40,873 nucleotides of DNA from contig CANRPE010000008.1 in the NCBI GenBank assembly GCA_947632405.1, positions 1 to 40,873 on the forward strand. Direction: 5' to 3'. The notes beneath the pieces were generated by a model. The model saw nothing but the letters and a program-made list of their open reading frames with translations. It was not told the origin of the DNA and did no database searches. This document shows, one piece after another, positions 3,235 to 10,738 of this stretch (position 1 is its first letter; every line of letters starts with the position of its first letter). A program made the position numbers and the translations under genes. This DNA comes from an uncultured Bacilli bacterium (GTDB lineage Bacteria; Bacillota_I; Bacilli_A; RF39; UBA660).

Positions 3235-3474
3235 ATGTTTGGAGATAGCTTTTTTAAAAAGGTTGAAAAAAAGACTAACGTAAATAAAGAAACAATTCTA
3301 TCTTTAGCAAAAAAACTTCAAAATTCTGATATGAAAGATGAAAAGGTACTTAGAGATATGGTTAAAGAAATTTCAACTATTACTGGAAAAGAAGTTTCTA
3401 AAGAAAAAGAAGATAAAATTGTCAATGCTATCGTAGAAGATAACGTTCCTAAAGATATTCAAAAAATGTTTTAG
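3235..3474 (+). CDS. spoVIF: stage VI sporulation protein F family protein
   Basis: This 79-residue protein matches the SpoVIF family as I know it: a VEKKTNV.KETI start, a KDEKVLRDMVKEI middle helix and a GKEVSKEKEDKIVNAI segment near the end. In Bacillus the family acts in late spore-coat assembly. A GTAGGAGG ribosome-binding site precedes the start. Its position directly before spoIVA, a coat basement protein, supports a sporulation role. The assignment rests on recalled family motifs, not a search. Confidence 0.8.
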   Translation: MFGDSFFKKVEKKTNVNKETILSLAKKLQNSDMKDEKVLRDMVKEISTITGKEVSKEKEDKIVNAIVEDNVPKDIQKMF

Positions 3475-3510
3475 TAATATGTTTTATTTTACATATTACT
3501 TTTTATTTGT

Positions 3511-3540
3511 TAAATTTACTTATTATTTATGGCATATCTT
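3511..3540 (+). promoter_or_regulatory. possible sigma-E promoter of spoIVA
   Basis: A CATATCTT element at 3533-3540 with an A/T-rich TAAATTT 16 bp upstream loosely resembles the mother-cell sigma-E consensus expected for spoIVA. The match is weak. Confidence 0.3.
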
Positions 3541-3584
3541 TCTTTATTTTTACATAAGTTTAAATTGAATAAAGGAGAATGTGA

Positions 3585-3977
3585 ATGGATAAACAAGAAA
3601 TAATTAAAAATATAGCTGCACGTAGTGGTGGAGATATTTACCTAGGTGTTGTTGGTGCAGTTAGAACTGGAAAATCTACTTTTATTAAAAAAATGGTAGA
3701 AACTTTAATTGTTCCTAATATTGAAGATGAATATGAAAGAAAAAGAGCTCTAGATGAAATTCCTCAAAGTGCAGCAGGAAAAACTATTATGACGACAGAA
3801 CCAAAATTTGTTCCTAATAATGCTGCTAAAATTAAAATTGATGATTTTAGCTGTAATATTAGATTAATTGATTGTGTCGGCTATATCATTGATAAATCCG
3901 TAGGATATGAAGATGAAAATGGACCAAGAATGGTTAAAACTCCATGGGAAGTTTACCCAAAAGTGATACCCCAATAA
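3585..3977 (+). pseudogene. spoIVA: SpoIVA N-terminal part, gene interrupted by mobile element
   Basis: SpoIVA is the mother-cell ATPase that polymerises on the forespore surface and forms the base of the spore coat. The first 121 codons are intact and include the Walker A GAVRTGKST (residues 24-32) and the highly conserved PQSAAGKTIMTTEPKFVPN stretch. After TPW (codon 121 is the TGG at 3945-3947) the frame runs into the inserted element, adds nine foreign residues and stops at 3977. The missing part lies at 9144-10256. Joined at the shared TGG, the gene would encode 491 residues. It is interrupted rather than decayed, because neither half carries an inactivating change. A GGAG ribosome-binding site precedes the start. 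Confidence 0.93.
3945..3971. other. left attachment site (attL)
   Basis: The shared TGG (3945-3947) is followed by 11 bp and then a 13-bp arm, AAAAGTGATACCC (3959-3971). The right end carries the exact inverted copy of this arm at the same distance from its TGG. Confidence 0.8.
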
Positions 3978-4064
3978 AAATTAAATAAATCCTTATAAAA
4001 TAAGAAAAAAACAATATTTCACTTGTTAGTCAAATTTAAAAAAACTAGGAAGTGAGATTTTTTT

Positions 4065-4244
4065 ATGAGAAATAATGAAAATATATTTAAAAGTGAGTTA
4101 ATTCCTTTGCTGATAAAATATAAAGAAACACTTGGTATTGTGTCTCCTATTAAAAGATTAAAATATTTTATTTTAAATAATAAAAAATATGAATTTAATA
4201 TAAATAAGTTTAATGATACGAGAGAAAAAAATATAATATTCTAA
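4065..4244 (+). CDS. small protein of unknown function next to attL
   Basis: This 59-residue lysine- and asparagine-rich ORF starts about 90 bp inside the left end of the element, after an AGGAAGTGAG ribosome-binding site about 8-12 bases upstream. I see no recognisable motif. Its size and position recall recombination directionality factors, which are small proteins (SprB of SPbeta is about 58 residues) that switch a serine recombinase to excision. That is a guess from context only. Confidence 0.45.
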   Translation: MRNNENIFKSELIPLLIKYKETLGIVSPIKRLKYFILNNKKYEFNINKFNDTREKNIIF

Positions 4245-4325
4245 ATTTAATTATGTCAATTTGAATCTTTTTGATATTTAAAAACTTGAGCTTTTCAGTT
4301 CAAGTTTAGTATATATAATTAATTA

Positions 4326-5234
4326 TTACTTGTTTAATATTTGATTAATAAATAATTCAGGATTATTCTCTGAATCAACAACTACTTTTTGTAATTCATT
4401 ATCTATTATGTATTCAATTTTTATTTCATATTCTACATTATAATTAACCTTATCATAATTATTGGATAATGTATTAAATAATGTATTGAATCCACTATTT
4501 CCTGCTAATTGCATCAAAGGATTTCCACCAAATACGACAGCTGATAATAATGCACTTTTTGTTTCATTTTCTTCTACTTTTTTCATGGAATTACTAACTT
4601 TTACTTTATCACGATATGTTATATTTCTAATTGCATCTAGAGGAATTTTTTTAATTTGTTTATTATTACTTACTGTATAAATTAAATCAACAGTTTTATC
4701 AGGAATATTATTGACTAATAAAATTGTTGTATAATAAGGTATTCCTTTAAAACCTAAAATTAAATTGGTAAAAAGAAAATTATTTTTATCTATATTACCA
4801 TCATATGTTAAAGGTTCACTATTTATATTACTACTATTTGTTAAAGATTTATTTTGTGGTTCACTACTTTCTATATTTTTAATATTAAAAAATAACGAAA
4901 TAATTAAAAAAAGTGCTGAACTATAATAAATGTACAAATTAGGTTGAAAAACAAATTTAAATTCAGTTAAATAGGTAACCATTTGATTAACTAAATAATA
5001 TGTCCAAAGATAAGTAAATAACGAAATTATAATAGATATATTTGCATTTTTATTTCTAATTGTACTATATATAGCTACTATTATAGCTACTACATTTACA
5101 TAAAAGCTTTCAAAAGTAAATATAGAAAGACTTCCTTCATTGGTAGTGATTATATTACCTGTTAATGAAATTATAATTAAAATTACTGCTATAACTATAA
5201 ATAACAACTTAAAATATTTAGATTTAGATTTCAC
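4326..5234 (-). CDS. membrane protein with soluble C-terminal domain, unknown function
   Basis: The product is about 302 residues. Four hydrophobic segments lie in the first 120 residues. A serine/asparagine-rich linker follows (about 125-150), then a mixed alpha/beta C-terminal half with a Gly/Asn-rich patch (VVFGGNPLMQLAGNSG). No family is recognised. I place the start at the GTG at 5234 because AGGTGAT lies just upstream. An in-frame GTG at 5243 overlaps that site. It is cargo of the intervening element, convergent with the small ORF to its left. A long AT-rich gap follows to its right. Confidence 0.6.
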   Translation of the reverse strand: MKSKSKYFKLLFIVIAVILIIISLTGNIITTNEGSLSIFTFESFYVNVVAIIVAIYSTIRNKNANISIIISLFTYLWTYYLVNQMVTYLTEFKFVFQPNLYIYYSSALFLIISLFFNIKNIESSEPQNKSLTNSSNINSEPLTYDGNIDKNNFLFTNLILGFKGIPYYTTILLVNNIPDKTVDLIYTVSNNKQIKKIPLDAIRNITYRDKVKVSNSMKKVEENETKSALLSAVVFGGNPLMQLAGNSGFNTLFNTLSNNYDKVNYNVEYEIKIEYIIDNELQKVVVDSENNPELFINQILNK

Positions 5235-5424
5235 ATATATCACCTAGTTAAATTATACTATATCCTTATTTTAAATAAATATATTAATTTTCCTAATATG
5301 CAAAATTTTACATTTTATTAACTATATTTTATTATTAAACTCCCTTCATTTCATTTTTTTCAAAAACCTATCTTATGGTAAATTTATATACCAAATTAGA
5401 AAAAGTTCCAAGTAAATTTCTAAA

Positions 5425-5490
5425 TGAAGTGTTAGTTTAACCACCTTAAATGATGTGCATATATTTTTTAATACTTGGGTATCATTTTTT
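5425..5490 (+). repeat. internal copy of the element's right end
   Basis: This 66-bp stretch matches 9065-9130 at 61 of 66 positions at a constant offset of 3,640. It includes the last codons of the recombinase reading frame (EVLV, stop) and the GGGTATCA arm of the right attachment site. Similarity ends where the crossover-proximal 11 bp begins. The rest of the 5244-5584 gap shows no gene. Confidence 0.85.
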
Positions 5491-5584
5491 CACCACATAG
5501 TGAGTGAAGTTTTATTATGTCCTAACTAAGAAATAACAAATATGACTAGTATGAAAAAACAACATATGTACAAAATTTTAATTA

Positions 5585-6925
5585 TTATTTATCTTTTTCA
5601 TTTAAAAATCTTTTTAAGAAGAAAGCCATAAAATATGGAAATGTATAAAACTTACCATTAAATCCTATATTTTTATTACATAATTTAATTCCATATTTAA
5701 CATTTTTATATTGCTTTTCTTCTATTAATTTATTTAATGAATAAGTTGGATTGTCTGATGCTTTAACTTCTACCGGAATTATATTTTGCTCATCTCTTAT
5801 TATAAAGTCCATTTCAATTTTATTTTGTTCATTCCTATAGAAGAATAAATTAAATCCAGCCTTAGTAAGCATTTCTGCAACTATATTTTCATATAGGGCA
5901 CCTTTATATGTTCCAAGATTTTGATTATTTCTTAGATCTTTTTGAGATTCTTCATCAAGTGATCCTATTAATAATCCTGTATCTCCAAAATATAGACGAT
6001 AATTATCTGGATTATAATTAACTTTTAAAGGCATTTCTAAGTGATCTAGAGAATAGCTTATATTAATTATTCCAGCTCTATCTAGCCAATCTATGACACC
6101 AACATACTCTCTATTTCTAGCACCATCTTTAAGTTTAGTAATTTGAAATTTTTTATTATCATTACCAAGAAATATTTTAATTTTTTTATATGCATCTAAT
6201 ATTTTAGATTTATCAAGTCCACCAGCATATTTTGTAATATCTTCTTCATAGTCAGTTAATAGTTTTTGTTGTCGTGCTAAAATACCACTAAAATTTTTAT
6301 TATCAATAAATGTACTTACGATTTCAGGCATACCACCAGTAATTAGATAATCTTTGAAGTTACTCATCATCACATCAAATTGCGTATTAGTTAAAGGTTT
6401 AACTTCTTTCATACATGTATATAAATCTTCTATTTGTTCATCACTATATCCTTTAGCCCATAAATATTCTTCAAAATCTAGTGATCTCATTGTATAATCT
6501 TCTTTATTGCCAACACTATTTGAATGTATTTGACTATAATTTATACCCATTAGTGATCCAGAACAAATAACATCAAATCTACCATCCTCATGAAAAAATT
6601 TTAAAGCAGTTGCTGTATTTGGATATTCTTGCATTTCATCAAAGAATATTAATGTTTCTCCAGGTATAAATTTAAAATCACTATTTAATAAACTTATATT
6701 TTTAATAATTTTATCAGTTGTATATCCATCTTGAAATACTTGCATAAATTGTGGCATAGAAACATAATTAATTTCAATAAAAGATGTATAGTTTTCTTTT
6801 CCAAATTTTTCTATTGATGTTGTTTTTCCAATTTGTCTTGCACCTTTAATTATTAATGGTTTTCTGTCTTTTGAATTTTTCCAATCAACTAAATACTTAT
6901 CGATTTTTCTTCTTAATTGTGCCAT
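5585..6925 (-). CDS. AAA ATPase with DUF4143 domain
   Basis: The product is about 446 residues from the ATG at 6925, preceded by TTGGAG. Reading from the in-frame TTG at 6940 would include that site. The N-terminal AAA domain has Walker A GARQIGKTT (residues 28-36) and Walker B LIFFDEMQEYP. The C-terminal half is of the DUF4143 type and ends with a PD-(D/E)XK-like motif, EMDFII followed by IPVEVKAS. Proteins of this architecture are common accessory genes whose substrate is unknown. Some have been discussed as stress or defence ATPases, but I assign no function. Upstream lie three 33-bp-spaced repeats. It is cargo of the spoIVA element. Confidence 0.88.
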   Translation of the reverse strand: MAQLRRKIDKYLVDWKNSKDRKPLIIKGARQIGKTTSIEKFGKENYTSFIEINYVSMPQFMQVFQDGYTTDKIIKNISLLNSDFKFIPGETLIFFDEMQEYPNTATALKFFHEDGRFDVICSGSLMGINYSQIHSNSVGNKEDYTMRSLDFEEYLWAKGYSDEQIEDLYTCMKEVKPLTNTQFDVMMSNFKDYLITGGMPEIVSTFIDNKNFSGILARQQKLLTDYEEDITKYAGGLDKSKILDAYKKIKIFLGNDNKKFQITKLKDGARNREYVGVIDWLDRAGIINISYSLDHLEMPLKVNYNPDNYRLYFGDTGLLIGSLDEESQKDLRNNQNLGTYKGALYENIVAEMLTKAGFNLFFYRNEQNKIEMDFIIRDEQNIIPVEVKASDNPTYSLNKLIEEKQYKNVKYGIKLCNKNIGFNGKFYTFPYFMAFFLKRFLNEKDK

Positions 6926-6949
6926 ACTATCACTCTCCAATATAATCCT

Positions 6950-7030
6950 ATCACATTTTTAGAAAAGAAATCAATACAAAAAATCACATTTTTAGAAAGA
7001 AATATCGACATAAAAATCACATTTTTAGAA
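6950..7030. repeat. three direct repeats with 33-bp period upstream of the ATPase
   Basis: ATCACATTTTTAGAA occurs at 6950, 6983 and 7016, exactly 33 bp apart, with unrelated 18-bp spacers. The array lies 25-105 bp upstream of the ATPase start, where operator sites would sit. The remaining gap to 7297 is AT-rich, and I see no other gene in it. Confidence 0.85.
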
Positions 7031-7297
7031 TATTTTGACATAATTTAATATAGATACTTAGTTAATAAAAAAATATAATAAAAAGTATCTATGAATATTA
7101 CTATATTAATTTTCAAATTGTTCATAATTTACTTATGTTAAAAATCTCAATCATATTTCCTAACATAGGTTATCTAATCTTTAAAAAATAATAATGGTAA
7201 TAATATTAACTCTAGAAAGAATAATGTCTAATTAATATAATGTTGTTCTTTTTCTTTTTTTAAGTTCATACAATTTATAGAATTGGAGGATAAATCT

Positions 7298-7513
7298 ATG
7301 TATGAAATATCAGAGTTTTATGCAGTAGATGGAAATAATTTAAAGGATTTATTAAAAAGTTGTATTTATAATTATTATGTTAAAAATAAAGATAAAATTT
7401 TATCTTCAAATGATTTGCAAAATCAAAAAAAACATTGTATATTGAAAAAATCAACTAACAAGTATGAAATATTGCCTGAAAAAGGAGAAAATAATGTACA
7501 AACAGTGCAATAG
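7298..7513 (+). CDS. small protein preceding the recombinase
   Basis: This 71-residue protein starts at the ATG at 7298, seven bases after GGAGGA. An in-frame TTG at 7283 would include that site. It begins MYEISEFYAVDGNNLKDLLK and is followed by a lysine-rich tail. It overlaps the recombinase start by 20 bp, so the two are coupled. I do not recognise the family. A regulatory or directionality role is possible from its position alone. Confidence 0.6.
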   Translation: MYEISEFYAVDGNNLKDLLKSCIYNYYVKNKDKILSSNDLQNQKKHCILKKSTNKYEILPEKGENNVQTVQ

Positions 7514-9080
7514 TGACAATATTAATTACAAAATTGGTTTATATATAAGATTATCTCGTGAAGATGGTGATGATTTAGAAAGTGAATCAGTAACTAATCA
7601 AAGAAGTCTATTAATTGGTTTTTTGAAAGCAAATGGATTACAAATAGTAGATGAATATATAGATGATGGTTATTCTGGTGGTAATTTTAATAGACCTAGT
7701 TTTCAAAGACTAATCAAAGATATAGAAGATGGTCGTATAAATATGGTACTTACTAAAGATTTATCAAGATTAGGTAGAGACCATATTCAAACTGGTTTTT
7801 ATGTTGAAAATTATTTTCCAGAAAAAGGAATTAGATATATTGCAGTAAACGATGATATAGATACTTTTTATGAAACAAGTGGTAGTGATATGATGCCATT
7901 CAAATTGAGTATGAATGATATGTATGCTAAAGATATTTCTAAAAAAGTTCGATCGCATTTACTTCAAATGAAACAAGATGGTAAATTTTGTGGTAGTGTT
8001 CCTGCTTATGGTTATATAAGACATCCAGAAGATAAGCATCAATTAATACCAGATCCTAGAACTGCACCAGTAGTAAAAAGAATTTTTGATTTATATATTA
8101 GTGGTTATGGTAGTTGTGCTATTGCTGACATATTAACTAGAGAGGAAATACCAACTCCTATTATGTTAAAGAATAAGAAAAAATCTTTAAAAAAATGTAA
8201 TCATCCAGAAATTTGGAAACATTGTTCTGTGGGAAATATACTTAAAAATCCAATTTATACTGGTGTCCTTATACAACATACTTCTCAAAATATAAATTAT
8301 AAAGTTAAAAAAAGAAGAAAAGTTGCTAAAAGTGAATGGTGTATAAAAGAAAATGCACATGAGCCATTAATTACTAAAGAAACTTTTGAGTTAGCTCAAC
8401 AAATTAAAGATAAATCAAATAATTATAGTGAAGATAGAAGAAATGTGGAATACATTTTATCAGATTTTGTATATTGTAAAGACTGTGGTGCAAGAATGAG
8501 TATTAGTTATGATAAAAAAAGAGATCGTGTAACCATGAATTGTAACAATTATAGAAAATTTAGTAAATATGATATATGTTTCTCTCATTATATGAATTAT
8601 ACTAAATTGGAAAAAACAGTTTTTCATAAAATTAGTGGATTATCAATGCAATATATGGAAGATAAGGAAGAATTTGAGAAAATAATTAAAGAAGATTATG
8701 TAGATCCAAGAATTGAACTTAATAAGAAAATAAATACTTTAACTAAAAGTATTGAAAATTTAAAATTAAAACAAGATTCATTATATGATGATAAATTTAA
8801 TGGTGTTATTAGTGCTGACACTTACCAAAGATTATATAGCCAAACTGATGAGGAAATAAATATAGCCAATAAAAAAATAAAAAAATATAGAAATGAAATA
8901 AACTCTATAAGTGATGAGTCAGTAGTTTTTGCAGATTACTTAACAGTAGTAGAAAACTTTTTAGAAATGAAAAATCCAACAAAAGAAATGCTTAATAAAT
9001 TAATCGACAAAATCTATGTAACAAAAGATAAAAAATTAGAAATTCATTATAGAATTGCCAAAAGTGAAGTATTAGTTTAG
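7494..9080 (+). CDS. large serine recombinase (site-specific integrase/excisionase)
   Basis: This 528-residue recombinase starts at the ATG at 7494, seven bases after AAAGGAG. The N-terminal resolvase domain has the catalytic serine in YIRLSRED (Ser21), then TKDLSRLGRD with its conserved arginines. A recombinase domain follows (ILTREEIPTP, WKHCSVGNILKNPIYTG). Next come a zinc ribbon (YCKDCGARM with a later Cys pair) and a C-terminal coiled coil. The order is that of TndX/SpoIVCA-like enzymes, with no truncation. The gene ends 60 bp from the right attachment site, as usual for such elements. It should catalyse both integration and excision, the latter normally with a directionality factor. Confidence 0.95.
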   Translation: MYKQCNSDNINYKIGLYIRLSREDGDDLESESVTNQRSLLIGFLKANGLQIVDEYIDDGYSGGNFNRPSFQRLIKDIEDGRINMVLTKDLSRLGRDHIQTGFYVENYFPEKGIRYIAVNDDIDTFYETSGSDMMPFKLSMNDMYAKDISKKVRSHLLQMKQDGKFCGSVPAYGYIRHPEDKHQLIPDPRTAPVVKRIFDLYISGYGSCAIADILTREEIPTPIMLKNKKKSLKKCNHPEIWKHCSVGNILKNPIYTGVLIQHTSQNINYKVKKRRKVAKSEWCIKENAHEPLITKETFELAQQIKDKSNNYSEDRRNVEYILSDFVYCKDCGARMSISYDKKRDRVTMNCNNYRKFSKYDICFSHYMNYTKLEKTVFHKISGLSMQYMEDKEEFEKIIKEDYVDPRIELNKKINTLTKSIENLKLKQDSLYDDKFNGVISADTYQRLYSQTDEEINIANKKIKKYRNEINSISDESVVFADYLTVVENFLEMKNPTKEMLNKLIDKIYVTKDKKLEIHYRIAKSEVLV

Positions 9081-9130
9081 CCACCTTAAATGGTGTGCAT
9101 ATATTTTTTAATAATTGGGTATCACTTTTT
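9065..9130 (+). repeat. right-end sequence duplicated inside the element
   Basis: Partner of the 66-bp copy at 5425-5490 (61 of 66 identical). This copy contains the recombinase stop codon and the right attachment-site arm. Confidence 0.85.
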
Positions 9131-9143
9131 AGGTTCACGGTGG
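9117..9143. other. right attachment site (attR)
   Basis: GGGTATCACTTTT (9117-9129) is the exact inverted partner of the left arm. It is followed by 11 bp and the shared TGG (9141-9143). The spacing is the same on both sides. Confidence 0.8.
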
Positions 9144-10256
9144 TATAATGAAGAAATTCCATTTATAGAAGCTGCAGAAATTGGAACAGAAAAAGTTATT
9201 AAAGATCACTCAACTATTGGTATTGTAGTAACAACAGATGGTTCTATTGGAGAATTTGATCGAAATGATTACCTTGAAGCTGAAAATAGAGTTATTAATG
9301 AATTAAAAGAAATTGGGAAACCATTTATTGTTATTTTAAATTCTACTCATCCTACTCTACCAGAAACAGAAAGACTTGCTAATGCCTTAAAAGAAGAACA
9401 TCAAGTACCTGTTTTACCAATTAGTATTGAGGCAATGAATGAAAAAGATATGTATGAAATTTTAAAAGAAGCATTATATGAATTTCCTATTCTTGAAGTT
9501 AAGGTTAATATGCCAGAATGGATTGCAATACTAAATTCTGATCACTCTGTTAAAAAAGAATATATTAAAGCAATTAAAGAAAGTGTTGTAGAAGTAGATA
9601 AACTACGAGATATTGAAAATATTACTCAACATTTCTTAAATAGTGAAATGATTGAAAAAAGTTATTTATCAAATGTTGACCCAGCAACAGGAATTGTTAC
9701 AATTGACTTAGAAGCACCACCTATATTATATAATAAAACTTTAACCGAAATTATTAATGTTGATGTTAAAAACAAGGCTGATTTATTAGCACTATTTCAA
9801 GAATTTAATATTGCTAAAAAAGAATATGATCAAATTAAGTATGCTTTGAAAATGGTTAAACAAACAGGATATGGTGTTGCTACTCCTTCATTAAATGATA
9901 TGAAATTAGAAAAACCAGAAATTATTAAACAAGGACCTAGATATGGAGTAAAATTAAAAGCTATTGCTCCTTCGATTCATATGATTAGAGTAGATGTTGA
10001 ATCTACATTCGAACCAATTATTGGTAGTGAGGTTCAAAGCAAAGAACTAATAGAATATCTTATGAAAGACCAAGATACAGATCCTACAAGTATTTGGAGA
10101 AGTGAAATATTTGGTAGAAGTTTAGATAATATTGTTCAAGAAGGAATTCAATCAAAAATAAATCTAATGCCTGATAACATTAGATATAAACTTCAACAAA
10201 CCTTAACTAAAGTAGTAAATAAAGGTTCAAATAATATGATTACTATCGTAATTTAA
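9141..10256 (+). pseudogene. spoIVA: SpoIVA C-terminal part, separated from its start by the element
   Basis: From the TGG at 9141 onward this encodes W-YNEEIPF and 370 further residues that follow B. subtilis SpoIVA closely: HSTIGIVVTTDGSIG, VILNSTHP, the ALKMVKQTGYG segment, KLKAIAPSIHMIRVDVES, and the C-terminal LMPDNIRYKLQQTL. An open frame extends back to an ATG at 9090, but that leader is element DNA and has no good ribosome-binding site, so it is unlikely to be translated. The coding sequence is undamaged, which argues that the rejoined gene is under selection. Confidence 0.93.
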
Positions 10257-10278
10257 AGAGGCTAGCCTCTTTTTTATT
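10257..10278 (+). terminator. terminator of spoIVA
   Basis: The perfect stem AGAGGC/GCCTCT is followed by a T run directly after the spoIVA stop codon. A run of A on the other side could let it serve the convergent gene as well. Confidence 0.8.
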
Positions 10279-10738
10279 TTATTTTCTTTGCACTCATTAA
10301 TATTTCTTTAGCATCATCTCCATAAATAATTCTTCCCATATCTATAAGCTTATTAATATTATCTATTTGTTCTATATCAACATAAAATTTATTATTATAA
10401 TATCGTATATTAGGTGTATTTTTGATGAAGTCATATTCTTCTGTTTCAAATAAAAATTTTTCATTTTGAAATAAAATTATTCTAAAATCAGCCTCATTAC
10501 TAAATTCATTATCATCTATTTTTATAACATTTAGAAATAACCCAATTTTTATATTAAAATATGCTTTTATTTTATAAAATCCGCTTAAATTTAATTTATA
10601 GCGATGATTTATTTTCAAAAGAAATTCTTTAATACAATTTAAAATTGTATCTTTATCATAGCAAGAAATATCATTAAAATTATAAGGATTTATATAAATA
10701 TCAATATCTTCATCATTAATCATTTCTACTCTCATCAT
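10274..10738 (-). CDS. hypothetical protein
   Basis: This 154-residue soluble, acidic and aromatic-rich protein has no signal peptide or membrane segment. A GGTGG ribosome-binding site precedes two adjacent ATG codons. The middle (residues about 33-75) alternates hydrophobic strands. I do not recognise the family. It is convergent with spoIVA and followed on its right by the leftward engB operon. Confidence 0.55.
   Translation of the reverse strand: MMRVEMINDEDIDIYINPYNFNDISCYDKDTILNCIKEFLLKINHRYKLNLSGFYKIKAYFNIKIGLFLNVIKIDDNEFSNEADFRIILFQNEKFLFETEEYDFIKNTPNIRYYNNKFYVDIEQIDNINKLIDMGRIIYGDDAKEILMSAKKIK

Follow-up and report, generated by a model that had tools for sequence, protein, structure and literature searches.

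The window, i.e. the whole stretch of DNA analysed here, comprises 40,873 nucleotides from an uncultured Bacilli bacterium (contig CANRPE010000008.1). The sporulation gene spoIVA is found in two pieces on its forward strand. A SigE-type promoter lies ahead of the gene at 3532–3556, with a -35 element GCATATC (3532–3538) and a -10 element CATA (3553–3556), a pattern common to 63 spoIVA upstream regions of the family. The two halves match consecutive parts of the SpoIVA families of Pfam. The 5' half (3585–3947) covers positions 1–123 of SpoIVA_ATPase, and the 3' half (9141–10256) covers positions 120–237 of SpoIVA_ATPase followed by SpoIVA_middle and SpoIVA_C. The split therefore falls within the ATPase domain. 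The TGG at 3945–3947, Trp121 of SpoIVA and the junction codon in 25 genomes, is the attL core, and the forward-strand TGG at 9141–9143, placed by junction comparison with relatives, is the attR core. The gene joined across the shared TGG has 491 codons without a stop and reads TPW-YNEEIPF in frame. As it stands, the 5' ORF continues for nine codons inside the element and ends at 3977, and the spoIVA coding capacity before excision is, from the sequence, a 130-aa fragment only. The initial annotation had claimed a spoIVA split by a serine-recombinase element, with two intact halves that share this codon and join in frame into 491 residues. All of this was borne out, since the ORF coordinates are right, the Pfam families match both halves and the recombinase, and the joined gene is free of stops. 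The further claim that removal restores the gene exactly is also true, but it holds for any precise excision by a large serine recombinase (LSR) and is not in itself evidence of developmental control. An intact second spoIVA, which the annotation had raised as an argument against its own reading, was looked for elsewhere in the genome (1.35 Mb, 96% complete) and none was found. The sole extra match was a sub-threshold one of 52 residues on another contig. Other spore genes are kept, as had been stated, namely those for Spo0A, SpoVIF and SigE/SigK-like sigma factors. An apparent split of sigK over two contigs of this genome was rejected as a 77-base overlap of contig ends with no insertion there.

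The element between the two TGG copies (3948–9140) is 5,193 bases long (5.2 kb), and its limits follow from the junction comparison and from intact spoIVA. Its left attachment arm GAAGTTTACCCAAAAGTGATACCC (3948–3971) is an imperfect inverted copy of its right arm GGGTATCACTTTTTAGGTTCACGG (9117–9140), both given on the forward strand and both conserved in the elements called type A below. The predicted attB is ...AAAACTCCA-TGG-TATAATGAAG.... Many elements open with a protein of about 330 aa that has a C-terminal cysteine cluster. The window holds a 59-codon remnant of it on the forward strand (4065–4244), whose start resembles cluster 3 proteins (11 ORFs from other elements). The reverse strand encodes a 305-aa protein without a Pfam family (4326–5243) and a 451-aa AAA_14/DUF4143 ATPase (5585–6940), which is related to the PADLOC candidate defence family PDC-S01. 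A copy of the right end of the element, 91% identical and including the last recombinase codons, is located internally on the forward strand (5422–5490). It is apparently the remnant of an earlier tandem element that has been lost in part. Just upstream of the DUF4143 ATPase gene, ATCACATTTTTAGAAA is repeated three times with a spacing of exactly 33 bases (6950–7031); these copies are possibly operator sites.

The right part of the element is a forward-strand operon. A SigE-type promoter match (7243–7274) consists of TTGTTC (7243–7248) and CATACAAT (7267–7274). It is followed by an ORF for a small 71-aa protein (7298–7513) that overlaps the start of the LSR gene (7494–9080). The LSR has 528 aa from its conserved start, in a frame open from 7464, and shows the Resolvase, Recombinase and Zn-ribbon domains of Pfam. 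The small protein is conserved in the other elements, just upstream of the LSR or overlapping its start, with 60–77 aa. It matched no Pfam family, and its AlphaFold model gave no confident fold (mean pLDDT 63). Its position, size and conservation make it a candidate recombination directionality factor. The cargo differs between elements, with the DUF4143 ATPase in the window and Fic, Mob_Pre relaxase (carried by type B relatives) or proteins of 2317 and 2747 aa elsewhere. The latter two are each the single very large protein that forms the main cargo of the spoIVA elements L081 (G275) and L120 (G098), respectively. Neither a relaxase gene, as expected of an integrative mobilizable element, nor phage structural genes, as expected of a prophage, were found among the ORFs of the element in the window. 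Several features of sporulation-gene intervening elements are present: the reading frame is restored by removal, the host gene has no other intact copy, and the element encodes its own site-specific recombinase, the LSR at its right end.

A survey of spoIVA in relatives for filled and empty sites, as the initial annotation had proposed, covered 385 genomes of the order, of which every listed one belongs to the same family, and a SpoIVA_ATPase match was obtained in 352. Split cases were re-examined and their junctions were read; G216, G112, G118, G002, G094, G109 and similar cases were left out as plain contig breaks. An element at the same TGG was identified in 25 genomes of 19 genera, the genome of the window included, which corresponds to about 7% of the sampled species (25 of about 352 spoIVA-bearing genomes). 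Type A elements end in GAAGTTTACCCAAAAGTGATACCC on the left and GGGTATCACTTTTTAGGTTCACGG on the right, type B elements in GTGTTGTTGAATAAGTGATACCC and GGTATCACGAAAACAGGTCATAC, and type C ends occur in two genomes; the left ends of G220 and G344 are variants. Within an element, each end is an imperfect inverted copy of the other about the core, which is what LSR attachment arms should look like. Both junctions lie on one contig in four surveyed genomes and in the named public contig L149, and further named public contigs also carry an element at this codon. Genera with filled sites also include species with uninterrupted spoIVA matches. Seven other genomes of the genus of the window are uninterrupted at the TGG codon, one of which (G004) is interrupted at a second site.

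The recombinases were then compared. All right ends recovered with enough DNA carry an LSR 68–97% identical to that of the window. On GTDB contigs, the LSR clade with at least 60% identity is located at spoIVA wherever flanks exist, and the next relatives drop to 42%. The low target specificity of TnpX-type elements was not found, as flanked members of the clade all sit at the same spoIVA codon. Genera with SpoIVA proteins of only about 61–75% identity have LSRs that are more than 90% identical to each other, and fully identical in two pairs. The sister species G098 and G173 have SpoIVA proteins 95% identical and LSRs only 75% identical. This mismatch indicates that the elements move horizontally and re-enter the same site, and the insertions look recent. 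Because the elements move, vertical occupancy over the long term is unusable as a test. Viral contigs hold distant LSRs only. A class-wide LSR search at E <= 1e-200 returned family members only, with a cut-off and a number of candidates scored that are too strict for a statement on absence elsewhere.

Stops in the spoIVA halves of relatives had been named as another observation that would count against the initial annotation. All of the joinable filled genes (21/21) are open, with 487–492 codons. The dN/dS values were 0.03–0.12 for filled against empty relatives, a range similar to that for empty against empty ones (0.02–0.10). Since the insertions look recent, the open halves and the dN/dS values reflect an absence of decay and are not a proof of function.

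The promoter ahead of the small ORF was evaluated with a matrix trained on the 63 spoIVA upstream regions of the family, whose signals are a -35 [GT][CT]ATAT-like element and a -10 CATAnnnTT. The upstream region in the window scored 17.5 bits, with CATA 31 bases ahead of the start. None of 1000 dinucleotide shuffles and 0.8% of the upstream regions of control genes reached this score. Among the controls, high scores came from spoIVA itself, gerS-like and cwlD-like genes and, with 400-base windows, other LSRs. Compared by group, higher scores than in the controls were obtained for the LSRs of spoIVA elements (p = 7e-9) and for the remaining LSRs of Bacilli assemblies (p = 3e-17), but not for LSRs of other classes (p = 0.63); these p values are indicative only, because the sequences are related and thus non-independent and the base composition is unmatched. 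Type B elements score lower, at about 10 bits, and G195 shows no match. Similar promoters also precede related LSRs that are located in genes without a known spore role, for example a ZIP transporter gene. A conserved, spoIVA-promoter-like block ending in CATAAnTTTAAGTG was observed about 200 bases ahead of the recombinase in other LSR operons of these Bacilli (L165, L166, L168, L171, L172, L185, L187, L202 and L235). SigE of Clostridioides difficile targets spoIVA and also controls the skin directionality factor (PMC5025042). The skin- and SPbeta-like logic proposed in the initial annotation has gained a SigE-type promoter ahead of the small ORF and the recombinase; excision in the mother cell is the part that we infer.

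The second interruption of spoIVA was found at APSIH/MI (around residue 403). In G193, which also has a type B element, the insert at this site measures 7.1 kb and encodes an unrelated LSR of 546 aa; the last spoIVA piece follows intact 7 kb on, and all three gene pieces are intact (L285, G193:C70:18800-28000). A 6.1-kb element occupies the same second site in G004 (L291, G004:C15:1-9800), and the left end of a second-site element is visible in G107 (L033). These cases point to independent targeting of spoIVA by two LSR families. A matrix scan ahead of the second-site LSR in G193 found no spoIVA-type promoter. The initial annotation had foreseen neither the mobile family at one codon in about 7% of sampled species and its horizontal movement, nor the empty sites in related species of the same genera and the second LSR family elsewhere in spoIVA.

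Other genes are split as well. In the genome of the window, another LSR element divides a gerS-like (LolA-type) lipoprotein gene (L236, G000:C13:8000-24000; 3463–3801 and 9876–10694), which has a full-length match in six congeners and its own spoIVA-like promoter. Several species of the genus, among them that of the window, have a LysM N-acetylmuramoyl-L-alanine amidase gene that is interrupted at nearly the same position, after SNHINAGG. The LSR elements in it have different cargo (L234 and L268–L276; G000, G001, G002, G003, G006 and G008), and G002 also has an intact copy of the gene. An LSR 42% identical to that of the window adjoins the 3' end of the spore coat gene cotZ (L157, 5574–5819). 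Other related LSRs sit at ZIP transporter, FtsW/SpoVE-like and cation-ATPase genes. Therefore, not every LSR target is a known spore gene.

On these data, we propose with a probability of roughly 78% that a mobile element uses the Trp codon of the TPW-Y/F motif of spoIVA as its attachment site in the manner of skin, and that the gene is rebuilt in the mother cell. The use of one codon, the conserved ends and the orthologous LSR shared by 25 genomes from 19 genera support this reading, and the SigE-type promoter ahead of the small ORF and LSR lends it independent support. The restriction of the LSR clade to spoIVA on contigs with flanks, the 21 open joined genes with their low dN/dS, the retained Spo0A, SpoVIF and sigma factors, and the SigE control of spoIVA and of the skin directionality factor in C. 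difficile agree with it. The second LSR family at spoIVA and the doubly filled yet intact gene also count for it. The sequence shows that the LSR inserted the element at TGG and that spoIVA can yield only the 130-aa fragment before excision. By this scheme, the gene would remain interrupted during growth and, later, in the forespore. Upon activation of SigE in the mother cell, the spoIVA-like promoter may drive the small ORF-LSR operon. The 71-aa protein, as putative directionality factor, would turn the LSR to attL x attR excision, and spoIVA would be rejoined in frame to give the 491-aa protein for coat and cortex assembly. As the mother cell lyses later, the element would be kept in the germ line and the spore.

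Traces of excision were searched for in contigs, and no excised junction was seen. In viral contigs, the circular attP junctions of both types, A and B, had no matches other than unrelated chance ones. Contig ends as a proof of excision were rejected in general, since the breaks in G132 and G180, which lie some 77 bases inside the element, fit an element shared between hosts. Two contigs of G069, C16 (L121) and C45 (L122), end flush at the TGG core from either side, which is suggestive of filled and empty sites mixed in the sample. An LSR of the spoIVA clade was not found in the G069 bin. A wider version of the proposal, to which we give slightly less than even odds, is that LSR elements under mother-cell promoters are removed during sporulation across this family of uncultured gut Bacilli, from spoIVA (at two sites) and from the gerS-like lipoprotein, LysM amidase and cotZ genes. 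In some species, every mother cell would then have to restore several genes, beginning with spoIVA as an early SigE gene.

The main competitor of mother-cell excision is that these are ordinary mobile elements with an attachment site that lies by chance in a conserved gene. In that case spoIVA would be inactivated, filled strains would be short-lived and non-sporulating, and excision would be rare and serve transfer. The sporadic distribution, the horizontal spread of recent insertions, the relaxase of type B and the related LSRs that split genes without a known spore role all agree with such elements. However, they would not explain the SigE-type promoter ahead of the small ORF and LSR, none of the 21 joined genes shows decay, and even the doubly interrupted gene retains three intact pieces. 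We regard this explanation as unlikely.

The two halves might instead function as separate assembling polypeptides that need no excision. Both halves are conserved, and in the window the right frame extends without a stop as far back as an ATG at 9090. However, none of the right halves has a start codon together with a ribosome-binding site and many lack any start codon, which makes a function as two polypeptides highly improbable, and a break within the ATPase domain speaks against it as well. An assembly artefact or a chimeric bin is equally improbable. The genomes are apparently all draft metagenome assemblies and many filled sites are near contig ends, but the same junction at the same codon was recovered from independent assemblies, with both ends on a single contig in four surveyed genomes and in L149. 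The recurrence in 24 other species of the family therefore argues against chance or misassembly.

Mother-cell excision, if true, would mean that programmed genome rearrangement in spore formers begins as early as the onset of SigE. Its carriers would be non-phage elements that spread horizontally, and it would be frequent enough for evolutionary tests. The known developmental excisions concern a handful of host genes, each reported separately. In the present case, elements with unrelated recombinases have repeatedly used an early spore-assembly gene as attachment site, in many species and at two positions. Metagenome-based predictions of sporulation should be made with caution, as they may score filled spoIVA genes as broken.

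The known hosts of sporulation-gene intervening elements are sigK, spsM, spoVFB, gerE and yabG (PMC10747680, PMC5595907). In agreement with the initial annotation, for which spoIVA was not a known host of such an element, no earlier report of one was found in the literature searched, most subscription papers lying outside the search. With the probable excision in the mother cell, spoIVA would be a new, early-acting host gene for developmental DNA rearrangement. Tn4451/TnpX-type transposons share the LSR domain order, and among solved chains the N-terminal domain of TnpX comes closest. Target specificity is low in TnpX-type elements, whereas all sites found for the spoIVA LSR clade are at a single spoIVA codon. 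Skin (sigK) and SPbeta (spsM) of Bacillus subtilis, vfbin (spoVFB) and yin (yabG) likewise split a spore gene precisely and in frame and carry the recombinase on the element (PMC10747680). However, they are prophages or prophage-like and have other host genes, and excision has been shown for them, whereas we infer it for the spoIVA element. The gin element in gerE of Bacillus cereus is likewise a non-phage genomic island in a mother-cell gene, has a factor needed for excision, for which the spoIVA element has only a candidate, and occurs in identical copies between strains (PMC5595907). In contrast to gin, with 28.6 kb and three recombinases, the spoIVA elements have one LSR of another lineage and range from 3.3 to more than 26 kb in 19 genera. 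The skin-Cd element of C. difficile (sigK; LSR CD1231, directionality factor CD1234) is also an LSR element within a mother-cell gene (PMC5025042). A small excision factor, a candidate one in the spoIVA element, is common to both; it is under SigE-type control in skin-Cd (PMC5025042) and has a SigE-type promoter match ahead of it in the spoIVA element. In contrast to sigK, the host spoIVA is a SigE gene itself and is needed earlier. The spoIVA elements also differ in that the small ORF and the LSR form one operon behind the promoter, the cargo is non-phage and many species are occupied. The spoIVA element thus appears to work like the sporulation-gene intervening group, with excision presumably taking place in the mother cell.
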